Shown: in pieces, positions 21,000 to 23,918 of the stretch | Numbering within the stretch: the stretch's first letter is position 1 | How the letters are laid out: each line of letters starts with the position of its first letter | Assembly: GCA_017459445.1 (NCBI GenBank) | Contig: JAFUDJ010000021.1 | Span: forward strand, 83,363-139,552 | DNA: 56,190 nucleotides | Direction: 5' to 3' | DNA from: Prevotella sp. | GTDB taxonomy: Bacteria; Bacteroidota; Bacteroidia; Bacteroidales; Bacteroidaceae | Position numbers and translations under genes: made by a program | The notes under the pieces: model-generated | The model's database searches: none | The model's input: the letters and a program-made list of their open reading frames with translations, nothing else | What the model was told of the DNA's origin: nothing

Positions 21000-21944
21000 C
21001 TACAGGCTGTAGGTGACGCTGACCAGCAGCGACGATGCCGAGACGTGGTACTTGGCGTAGGCCAGCTGCAGCTTGAAGCGCTCCAGCTGCACGCCGGCAC
21101 CGAGGGAGATGCCTGCCCCGTGGTTGCTGTCGCCGTCGTCCTCGGTGATTTTCATCTCGCTGGAGCGGCGGAAGTTATAGCCGGCGGCGATGTAGAAGGT
21201 CTGGCCGATATTGATGTCGGCACCCACGGCGAGGTGTTTGATGAAGTCTTGCTCCCAGTTGTTCAGTCGGCTGAGCGTGGCATGCAGCGTCAGTGGCGAG
21301 CCGATGAGGCGCTTGGTGAGGCCCACCTGCAGGTCGAGGGGTATGCGCTCGAAGTCGTCGTTGTATGCCTTGACCTGTCCGCCGAGGTTCTTGGCGACGG
21401 CCGACACGGACCATCCGTGCTCCGCGTCGTAGTAGTTGGCGCCGAGGTCGACGGCCACGGCTGCCGAGGAATAGCTGCCGATGGTCGACGAGATGAGGCG
21501 GGCGGTGATGCCGCCGCTGATTTTGTTGCTGAGCATGTAGGCAAAGGAGCCGGCCAGCGCGATGTCCTTGGGCGAGAAGGTGCCCGTCTCGACATTGTCG
21601 GCATTGGTCTCCTTGATGGAGCCGTAGGCCATGAACTGCGCGCTGACGCCCCACGTGGCGCGCTCCTTGACGGCCTTGACGAAGGAGGCCGACGCCGTCG
21701 TGCTGCCCTCCATGTAGGTCATGAAGTTCAGGTTGATGCTCTTGTCGCTGACGTTGCTGATAAGGGCGGGATTGTGGAAGATGACGGTGGGGTCGTCGTC
21801 GGACAGCGAGATGTTGTCGCCGCCCAGCGCCGCGACGTGGGCGCTGACGGGCAGGCGCAGGAAGCTGTACACCTCCTTGCTCTCCTGGGCCTGTGCCGCC
21901 ACGGCGGCCACGGCCGTTATGAGGAAGATAAGAATTCTTTTCAT
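21000..21944 (-). CDS. porQ: Type IX secretion system protein PorQ
   Basis: PorQ is an outer-membrane barrel of the type IX secretion system; with PorU, PorV and PorZ it belongs to the attachment complex that anchors cargo. The 314-residue protein has a signal peptide ([20 protein letters not shown]) and the family N-terminus [18 protein letters not shown], then [14 protein letters not shown] and repeated beta strands ending LLVSVTYSL. It heads the porQ-cmk-fucI run. The promoter is unclear: GGTATACTTTTAACG about 30 bases upstream is a poor -7 match. Confidence 0.92.
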
Positions 21945-22018
21945 CGTGTTTCTATACTATTATTATCAACGTTAAAAGTATACCATTTATTGTTGACATG
22001 GCATTAAAATAGGAAAAT

Positions 22019-22222
22019 GCAAAAGAAATTTTGCGTTTTCCCCACTTATTCGTACCTTTGAGCTTCGCTCGAAAGTACTCACGCTCGGAAAAACCCAAAT
22101 TTTATTTGGTTTTTCGCTCGCTTAATCGTACCTTTGCCATTGTGAACAATGGCGAAAGTACTCACGCTCGACAAAAAAAAGAATAAATTCTTTTGTTTTG
22201 TTCTCGCTTAATCGTACCTTTG
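22019..22222 (+). repeat. Triplicated promoter-hairpin array
   Basis: Three tandem modules each carry an inverted repeat whose 3' arm supplies the TTTG -33 box, a 19-20 base spacer ending in TTATTCG or TTAATCG, and TACCTTTG. The -33/-7 pairs are 22030-22033/22053-22060, 22105-22108/22129-22136 and 22192-22195/22215-22222. After the first two -7 boxes comes a small hairpin (GAGC-TTC-GCTC at 22060-22070; GCCATTG-TGAA-CAATGGC at 22136-22153) and then the identical 18-mer CGAAAGTACTCACGCTCG (22070-22087, 22153-22170). Arm sequences differ between modules while complementarity is kept. Confidence 0.85.
22192..22222 (+). promoter_or_regulatory. Proximal promoter of the tonB-like operon
   Basis: TTTG (22192-22195), 19-base spacer, TACCTTTG (22215-22222). 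It ends 7 bases before the first possible ATG at 22230, so its transcript would be nearly leaderless unless ATG 22263 is used. Confidence 0.75.
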
Positions 22223-22229
22223 CAGCGCA

Positions 22230-22940
22230 ATGATAGAAGAGAAGAAGAGCAGGGCTGCCGATATGGAGCAGCGGCGCACCACAGGATTCCTGCTGGGGCT
22301 GCTGCTCGTGCTGTCATTGTTTTACGTGGCGCTGGAGTGGAACTCGGCGGAGGCGACGGACGACATAGACCCGATAGACCTGGACGAGATACGCCACGAG
22401 AGCGAGCTGGTGCCGATGTCGAACGAAGAGACGGTGGCACAGGTGGAAGAACGGCAGCAGTCGGAGAAGGCCGAGCAGCTGAATGTGGTCGACGACGACG
22501 TGGAGCTGGCTGACGCGCAGGAGGAGGCGGAAGGCGAGGGCGACGACGACGAGACGCTGTTGCAGCAGTTGGAGGAGGAGAACGACGACAAGGCGCTGGC
22601 CGCCTTGGAGGTGGACCCGAACAACCCGCTGAACTTCCACATCGCCGAGGAGCTGCCGCAGTATCCGGGCGGTGCCGTGGAGTTCATGAAATGGCTGACC
22701 AAGACGCTGCGCTACCCGGAGGGTGCCCGCAAACGCAAGGTGCAGGGCAAGGTGGTGGCCGTCTTCTATGTGGAGAAGGACGGCTCCGTGACCGGCATCA
22801 GCGTCACGCAGTCGCTGGCTCCTGACTGCGACCGCGAGGCTTTGCGCGTGCTGGGCATGATGCCCAAGTGGAAGCCCGGCGTGCAGCACGACCGTCCCTG
22901 CCGGACGAAGGTTTGTATTCCCATCGTATTTAAATTATAA
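22230..22940 (+). CDS. TonB-family energy transducer
   Basis: A 236-residue TonB-like protein that would carry proton-motive-force energy from ExbBD to outer-membrane receptors. One membrane helix (TTGFLLGLLLVLSLFYVALEW, about residues 17-37) is followed by a very acidic linker (about 40-125, with GEGDDDE) in place of the usual Pro/Lys-rich one, and a C-terminal TonB domain with LRYPEGARKRKVQGKVVAVF. The start may be ATG 22230 or ATG 22263 (Met12). It heads an operon with the prenyl synthase (3-base gap) and the TatD-like gene. No exbBD lies nearby. Confidence 0.88.
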   Translation: MIEEKKSRAADMEQRRTTGFLLGLLLVLSLFYVALEWNSAEATDDIDPIDLDEIRHESELVPMSNEETVAQVEERQQSEKAEQLNVVDDDVELADAQEEAEGEGDDDETLLQQLEEENDDKALAALEVDPNNPLNFHIAEELPQYPGGAVEFMKWLTKTLRYPEGARKRKVQGKVVAVFYVEKDGSVTGISVTQSLAPDCDREALRVLGMMPKWKPGVQHDRPCRTKVCIPIVFKL

Positions 22941-22943
22941 TCT

Positions 22944-23918
22944 ATGAACACATCAAAAGAAATCCTGCAGAAAGTCAACGACTTCCTTGCCCAGCTGCCC
23001 TACGACCGCCGGCCGGCATCGCTCTATGAGCCGGTGGAGTATGTGCTGTCGTTAGGCGGCAAGCGCATCCGCCCGGTGCTGATGCTCATGAGCTATAACT
23101 TCTGGAAAGAACGGGTGGAGGACATCCTGATGCCTGCCGTCGGACTGGAGACTTACCATAACTACACGCTGCTGCACGACGACCTGATGGACAATGCCGA
23201 CGTGCGCCGGGGGCATGCCACCGTGCACCGCCGCTGGAATGCCAACAAGGCCATCCTGTCGGGCGACGCCATGCTGGTGCTGGCCTACCAGCGCATACAG
23301 CAGGTGGCCGACGACAAGCTGCCGGCCGTGATGGACCTCTTTACGGAGACGGCGCTGGAGATTGGCGAGGGCCAGGAGTACGACATGGCTTTCGAGACGC
23401 GCAACGACGTGACGGAGGAGGAATACATCGAGATGATTCGCCTGAAGACATCCGTGCTGTTGGCCTGCGCCATGAAGATGGGGGCCATCCTGGCCGACGC
23501 GCCCAAGGAGGACGCCGACCGGCTGTACCGCTTCGGCGAACAGGTGGGGCTGGCATTCCAGTTGCAGGACGACCTCCTGGACGTCTATGGCGACCCTGCC
23601 GTGTTTGGCAAGGCGATAGGCGGCGACATCACGTCGAACAAGAAGACCTACATGCTGATAAATGCGGTGAACCGTGCCGACAGCCGCCAGCGCGAAGAGC
23701 TGGAGCGGTGGATAGGGCTGCGCGACTTTGACCGCCAGGAGAAGGTGGCTGCCGTGACGCGGCTGTACGACGAGATAGGCATCCGCGAGCTGTGCGAGGC
23801 GAAAATAAACAGCTACTTCGAGCAGGCGCGCCAGACGCTCCGCGAGGTCAACGTGCCGGAGGAGCGGAAGCTGATGCTGCGTCAATACATGGATGAACTG
23901 TTGCACCGCGACAAATAA
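22944..23918 (+). CDS. Polyprenyl (geranylgeranyl/farnesyl-type) diphosphate synthase
   Basis: A 324-residue trans-prenyltransferase that condenses isopentenyl diphosphate onto allylic diphosphates. The first Asp-rich motif is LLHDDLMDNADVRRG and the second is LQDDLLDVYGD; GGKRIRPVL binds the diphosphate. A Tyr sits five residues before the first motif, which in related enzymes limits chain length, so a C15-C20 product is plausible but not proven. It follows the tonB-like gene by 3 bases and is followed by the TatD-like gene. Confidence 0.92.
   Translation: MNTSKEILQKVNDFLAQLPYDRRPASLYEPVEYVLSLGGKRIRPVLMLMSYNFWKERVEDILMPAVGLETYHNYTLLHDDLMDNADVRRGHATVHRRWNANKAILSGDAMLVLAYQRIQQVADDKLPAVMDLFTETALEIGEGQEYDMAFETRNDVTEEEYIEMIRLKTSVLLACAMKMGAILADAPKEDADRLYRFGEQVGLAFQLQDDLLDVYGDPAVFGKAIGGDITSNKKTYMLINAVNRADSRQREELERWIGLRDFDRQEKVAAVTRLYDEIGIRELCEAKINSYFEQARQTLREVNVPEERKLMLRQYMDELLHRDK

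Follow-up and report, generated by a model that had tools for sequence, protein, structure and literature searches.

The window, a stretch of 56,190 nucleotides from the genome of a Prevotella sp., raises the question of why three promoters, each interlaced with a hairpin, should stand in tandem in front of one gene. Between 22013 and 22225 we found three Bacteroidetes-type promoters (TTTG-N19-TACCTTTG, TTTG-N20-TACCTTTG and TTTG-N19-TACCTTTG), all of which conform to the sigma-ABfr consensus described for Bacteroidetes in the cited part of PMC7366714 (TTTG near -33 and TAnnTTTG at -7), with spacings of 19, 20 and 19. The gene that they would serve (22230-22940, plus strand) carries a TonB_C domain according to a profile match (PF03544, E 7.5e-16); a polyprenyl synthetase gene starts behind it at 22944, and the divergent gene (21000-21944, minus strand) shows a weak resemblance to PorV, under the family cut-off. 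The answer that we regard as reasonably probable is that each module is a copy of a non-autonomous mobile repeat of gut Bacteroidales, conserved in structure, one end of which has been recruited as a promoter.

A preliminary description of this DNA had announced three complete promoters, with each -33 TTTG placed in the 3' arm of a separate hairpin and with an identical 18-mer after the first two -7 boxes. The promoters are indeed complete (22030-22222, all three -7 boxes being TACCTTTG), the position of the -33 elements agrees with the sequence and with an inverted-repeat reading, and exact copies of the 18-mer stand at 22070-22087 and 22153-22170. However, the 18-mer does not follow the -7 boxes directly, since palindromic spacers of 9 nt (AGCTTCGCT) and 16 nt (CCATTGTGAACAATGG) intervene. 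These two 18-mers are the sole matches in the window with up to three mismatches (0.09 expected from shuffles), hence the first module lacks this half; GCTCGCTTAATCGTACCTTTG likewise has two matches (0.00 expected from shuffles), and chance would hardly yield the two copies of CTCGCTTAATCGTACCTTTG. The description had overlooked a complementarity between the first half of the 18-mer (CGAAAGTAC) and GTACCTTTG further downstream, from which only two positions deviate.

On the plus strand, the first (half) module consists of an AT-rich hairpin (inverted repeat, 22013-22040, with the -33 TTTG at 22030-22033) and of the distal -7 box of promoter 1 (TACCTTTG, 22053-22060). Module 2 starts with the palindrome AGC-TTC-GCT (22061-22069), which together with the flanking TTTG and CGAA forms a left mini-hairpin; then come the 18-mer (22070-22087), composed of an element A (CGAAAGTAC, 22070-22078) and an element B (TCACGCTCG, 22079-22087), an AT-rich hairpin (22088-22115, -33 TTTG at 22105-22108) and the elements C (CTCGCTTAATC) and D (GTACCTTTG) at 22117-22136, where D contains the -7 box of promoter 2 (22129-22136) and pairs with A. 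Module 3 repeats this order, with the inverted-repeat spacer CCATTGT-GA-ACAATGG (22137-22152) as left mini-hairpin, the second 18-mer as A and B (22153-22170), an AT-rich hairpin (22171-22202, -33 TTTG at 22192-22195) and C and D (22203-22222), whose gene-proximal -7 box (22215-22222) is separated by 7 bases from the ATG. A 100-base stretch covering this last part (22126-22225) is 98% identical over 101 columns to L004:273-373, situated elsewhere in the same genome in front of another gene, which looks queA-like by eye. A search of 21900-22300 against Rfam gave three weak matches, all below the gathering score, and the same search of 17 module loci gave only two tRNAs, both adjoining modules in L110.

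The general unit was deduced from 119 aligned cores, from which one false core (L065:2172) was removed before counting A against D. It reads, from left to right, a mini-palindrome, A (CGAAnnTAC), B (TCACGCTCG), an AT-rich hairpin H, C (CTCRCTTAWTC) and D (GTAnnTTTG), with the -33 box within H, the -7 box within D, and A complementary to D. B and C are conserved and largely non-complementary, and an identical bulge recurs in the inner hairpins of many copies. Among 182 modules (224 minus 42 removed by filtering on B and C alone), a palindrome with arms of at least 2 adjoins A in 157; 108 of these palindromes have triloops, of the type TNC in 89 cases, and triloop hairpins fall to 42, 8 and 20 when the anchor is shifted by one, two and three bases. 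Extra A/D types (ATAAAATCT...AGATTTTTC, CGAAAATTC...GAATTTTTC), paired and devoid of promoter consensus, were observed in L098, L099, L126, L129 and L210, some of them inside promoter-type arrays.

The module is not specific to this locus. The preliminary description had suggested a dispersed, promoter-carrying repeat occurring in tandem and a search for the 18-mer and the module in other genomes of the genus, and such copies do occur outside the window locus, in its own genome, in the genus, in the family and in the order. In its own genome, we counted 12 18-mers with 0-1 mismatch (reversed control 0), 26 promoter halves (control 0) and at least 23 covariance-model matches; another copy is 90% identical to the window stretch over 100 columns. 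In the genus, 69 of 120 genomes contain the 18-mer with up to 2 mismatches, with 0 to 40 copies each; single matches are doubtful because the reversed control itself gives 0 to 3, and the safe number is that of the 32 of 120 genomes with at least 4 copies, above every reversed control. The covariance model, whose E-values are rough, matched 121 of 201 genomes and 22 of 30 genera of the family (E <=1e-3) and 18 of 198 genomes drawn from the order (E <=1e-4), with the candidates scored per genome capped at 25 and 26, respectively; the own genome is included in these two counts and in that of the genus. Copy number differs between species. The genomes are drafts and often incomplete (55% for that of the window). 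Among named public genomes, 23 stretches carry the exact 18-mer; 21 belong to Prevotella, Prevotellaceae or Bacteroidales, and the remaining 2, from unrelated bacteria, have no surrounding module. The cultured P. communis E15-14 is among the module carriers (L040). In the open-access literature searched, the only repeat piece with a matching string was the 12-mer GCTCACGCTCGG, with no related title, and the -7 box strings gave many matches, with no related title among the matches listed; as far as this open-access collection and these terms go, the repeat is not in print.

What is conserved between copies is the fold. The earlier suggestion of selection on structure is borne out by strong covariation of the A:D stem and of the AT hairpin, and by pairing that is also found outside the family. 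In a first alignment of 27 copies, 91.1% of the cells are paired (78.7% in shuffles, 40-53% when the partner is slid), both sides have changed in 14 of 21 pairs, and 61 cells are double changes against 14.7 in shuffles, these controls being biased in favour of pairing by rows picked from a list with good A-D pairing and by a structure drawn from the same sequences. The second comparison, anchored on B and C alone and without pairing filter, is free of this selection bias: excluding position 2, the 75 distinct A/D pairs have 461 Watson-Crick cells out of 600, against 361.7 +/- 8.6 when shuffled, and the 17 pairs from outside the family have 110 out of 136, against 82.9 +/- 4.2, a value reached by none of 10,000 shuffles. 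Pairing is kept in copies whose D is not a promoter element, including copies outside the family. Where the upstream -7 box differs (42 modules), A fits its own D better in 37 cases, the upstream box fits better in 2, and 3 are ties. Position 6 of B and position 4 of C also covary (C-G 72, T-A 22, C.A 20, T.G 1, C.T 1).

One position of the stem behaves in the opposite way, A position 2 and D position 8 being kept unpaired: only 4 of the 75 distinct pairs are Watson-Crick there and most are G.T (47) or T.T (14). This mismatch bears on two other readings. Templated mutation, by quasi-palindrome correction acting on ordinary tandem promoters and without selection on a fold, would account for the joint change of the two arms within a copy, an expected outcome of template switching; we consider it very unlikely, because such correction would erase the mismatch that is fixed at position 2, the bulge recurring in the inner hairpins and the conserved, largely non-complementary character of B and C. 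The second reading, a bidirectional promoter or a symmetric operator for a dimeric regulator, draws on the presence of TTTG in either arm of hairpins of the short type. However, the leftward box reads TTCG, and the A at position 2 that would restore TTTG occurs in only 1 of the 182 modules, so that leftward firing, proposed earlier as a possibility for one module, is rejected as a function of the module. Moreover, the arms vary without loss of pairing, a constraint that a protein recognising double-stranded sequence would not impose, and we find this reading most improbable. A related hairpin that does agree with it was seen in the same genome (L010:1391-1485, contig C27), between genes that look miaB-like and murF-like by eye: its consensus TACCTTTG -7 boxes face both ways (GCAAAGGTAC...GTACCTTTGC), position 2 being A, and the leftward box is thus restored where a leftward gene exists.

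The fold could also act in RNA. Transcripts from a distal promoter would carry the A:D fold before the start codon, as a structured 5' leader tuning translation or stability, the promoter being secondary. The RNA fold of the two full modules (22070-22222) is consistent with this, with -41.1 kcal/mol against -24.2 +/- 3.4 kcal/mol in shuffles (z -5.0), as is the pairing retained by copies whose D does not form a -7 box (L086, L079 and L132, for example). Nevertheless, the mismatches of the A:D stem outside position 2 (A.C 67, G.T 10, other 52) are the wrong way round for a sense RNA, a transcript from the adjacent box would, judging from the -7 position, miss the left arm of the mini-hairpin, the genes served by modules in the own genome look unrelated by eye, and copies that are not of promoter type show no preference for gene starts (see below). 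A leader RNA is therefore an unlikely explanation. The excess of A.C over G.T rather hints at folding of the bottom DNA strand, as do the excess of C.A over T.G at the B/C pair (20 against 1) and the TNC triloops, which are of the C(GNA)G type (89 of 108) on that strand. Triloops of this type have a special stability in DNA. Against the bottom strand stand the inner hairpins, with 10 G.T and 5 A.C mismatches, and position 2, which is G.T on the top strand; computed DNA folding energies of the top and bottom strands did not discriminate between them.

Copies differ in their relation to genes according to their D element. After exclusion of copies internal to arrays and of those in which fewer than 5 of the 8 pairs form, an open frame starts with ATG no more than 100 nt away from 105 of the 114 copies in which D is TAnnTTTG (16 of 114 in the leftward control), whereas such a start is present for 11 of 34 copies with another D (control 10 of 34), which amounts to no gene-start bias. 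The latter copies nevertheless keep the fold. In genus g49 (G168, G216), 17 of 19 copies are CTAAAATGC...GCATTTTTG, mostly in tandem and amid TTGACCA/TTGAACA heptamers, and in the family f29 genome G459 A most often reads TGAATCTGC (6 of 15), with TTGTTAG repeats alongside. Because these non-promoter copies retain it, the fold is probably the wider and older trait and the promoter use a local recruitment; the direction from non-promoter to promoter is our inference. In L212-L220 (g49) and L307-L319 (f29), we also observed copies amid heptamers beginning with TTG, as if TTG were a landing site. Among the 105 genes that modules would drive, 33 have their ATG 4-9 nt past the -7 box, and so does the window gene (22215-22230). 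Such short distances suggest near-leaderless mRNAs; 5' UTRs shorter than 10 nt make up only about 3.7% of the total in Bacteroides thetaiotaomicron, according to the cited part of PMC7366714.

The modules might also have been selected as an amplifying or competing array, each of them an active promoter raising or tuning transcription. In favour of this stand the window, where several start sites are possible since all three boxes are intact, and the C26 array, with five consensus boxes. As to this proposal of the preliminary description, the tandem occurrence holds and the general rule does not, for the consensus -7 box is found in 108 of 116 final positions and in only 22 of 42 internal ones (Fisher p 3.8e-8). 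D elements starting with GC were left out of this promoter comparison, and 5 of the 20 internal non-consensus boxes lack TA at positions 2-3. When only D elements with TA at positions 2-3 are kept, the consensus is present in 108 of 110 final boxes and in 22 of 37 internal ones (29 loci; p 7.7e-9), 15 internal boxes being non-consensus against 2 final ones; both p-values are optimistic because copies are related by descent or array duplication and the counts are not independent. In three arrays of genus g46, the internal boxes are TACCGTTG or TACCGCTG and the last box is TACCTTTG. Selection for such an array is thus quite unlikely as a general explanation.

The modules are also present or absent at orthologous positions. 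The nearest relative of the TonB gene (L132, 75% protein identity) has one module directly after TGTACCTTTG, in which D is the non-promoter GCAGCCTTG and A (CGAGACTGC) still pairs with it, and the following relatives (L133-L136, 71 to 63%) have one -7 box and no module. By eye, a leader resembling AACG...TTTATT precedes the ATG of the TonB-domain gene in L132, L133, L135-L150 and others; the window lacks it and has the modules in that place. For three genes of genus g46, selected because one genome carries an array there, a module (A-B with up to 4 mismatches, within 600 bp) was found in none of 29 orthologs from sister species (9, 10 and 10 other genomes); a TAnnTTTG lies no further than 75 nt from the start in 22 of these, TACCTTCG alone occurs in 4, and 3 have neither. 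Loss is possible as well as gain, since the module-free argS orthologs of G249 and G278 show by eye apparent remnants of the hairpin and C half. At the queA-like locus, no empty site was found, the upstream context being too different.

We propose that these features belong to a mobile repeat of about 70-100 bp which would be conserved as a fold, made of the left mini-hairpin (TTTG-arm-TNC-arm-CGAA) and of a main imperfect hairpin with an outer A:D stem, a conserved internal loop B/C containing one covarying pair, and an inner AT hairpin. A putative enzyme would recognise the folded single strand, and the repeat would insert at TTTG or TTG, in Prevotella typically at a gene's -7 box and oriented with D toward that gene. 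In the Prevotella branch, D at the right end would have turned into a -7 box of the form TAnnTTTG, the -33 TTTG lying within the inner hairpin. The gene-adjacent copy would then take over transcription, for which reason the upstream boxes would be redundant and tend to decay, and arrays could grow in tandem because each copy ends in TTTG, like the target. More tentatively, and with only a modest chance of being right in full, the modules may represent an order-wide class of mobile elements read as a folded single strand, in which the CGAA/TGAA of A (with its fixed G.T) pairs either with sequence flanking the element on the left or with the end of the element itself and could guide it to TTTG targets, homing to -7 boxes and rewiring Prevotella promoters.

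The closest parallels are the REP/REPIN elements, which according to the cited parts of PMC8266576 and PMC3733652 are mobilised by TnpA-REP (RAYT), relatives of IS200/IS605 transposases, and of which the E. coli enzyme needs a conserved mismatch (PMC8266576). As these sources describe them, they are small, dispersed, imperfect palindromes found in intergenic arrays, with arms that vary while pairing is kept; the conserved stem mismatch of one REP group recalls A2:D8, and the motif beside the module hairpin, complementary to the flank, resembles a guide sequence. Unlike them, the region 22013-22225 contains GTAG, CTAC, CGTC and GACG zero times each, and the module consists of two hairpins sharing one strand and has an end that is a -7 box, such copies standing at gene starts. 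Neither is a Y1 transposase linked to the modules: Y1_Tnp (PF01797) is absent from 7 module-rich genomes of the genus (G000, G027, G032, G056, G063, G094, G105), it is present in 13 of 25 genomes tested (G049 and G059, for example) and in 10 of 20 further module-bearing genomes, and none of 36 Y1 loci (36 of 45 matches listed) has a module in its 1.5 kb flanks. Mobilisation by Y1/RAYT was thus rejected, and the likeness to REP lies in a possible way of working, membership failing on the GTAG tag and the transposase.

The BrickBuilt MITE of P. gingivalis and P. gulae (PMC4596501) is likewise intergenic, from Bacteroidales, with tandem repeats and promoters, and its authors discuss a possible putative mobile promoter; it differs in its 23 nt repeats and IS5-type terminal inverted repeats (GAGACCTTTGCA), and no covarying fold is noted in the cited part of that report. 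As MITEs are, the module is short, non-coding, dispersed and multi-copy. Its A and D are inverted repeats, but the mini-hairpin stands further out than A and no exact ends could be assigned, and TAnn and/or TTTG occur on both sides, which leaves the junction of a target-site duplication ambiguous, different lineages suggesting different junctions. The attC sites of integrons are tandem, imperfect hairpins, variable in sequence and conserved in structure, with fixed unpaired bases and a folded bottom strand that is read. The module shares with them the tandem arrangement, the variable sequence, the kept structure and the fixed unpaired bases; it has no cassettes and the attC boxes do not match. 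In the invertible promoters of Bacteroidales, the promoter lies between flanking inverted repeats, whereas the repeats of the module are folds within one module, and a pattern with the middle inverted behind A gave no match in the loci examined.

Prevotella and related bacteria are prominent inhabitants of the gut and the rumen, and little of their gene regulation has been mapped; the spread of the repeat appears to have rebuilt the front ends of many Prevotella genes. If this is true, a repeat rebuilding the promoters of household genes insertion by insertion would be a direct source of regulatory change between species, and the conserved fold with its fixed mismatch predicts an undiscovered recognising enzyme. 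For annotation, tandem TACCTTTG boxes in these genomes are likely to be repeat copies and not independent regulatory sites. A scan of viral sequences returned two stretches with the 18-mer: the one in L231 has no module around it, and the other (L232:5650-5980, contig IMGVR_UViG_3300028805_000072, 126 kb, classed as viral) contains one complete module before an ATG, reflecting either carriage by a phage or a mis-sorted host contig.
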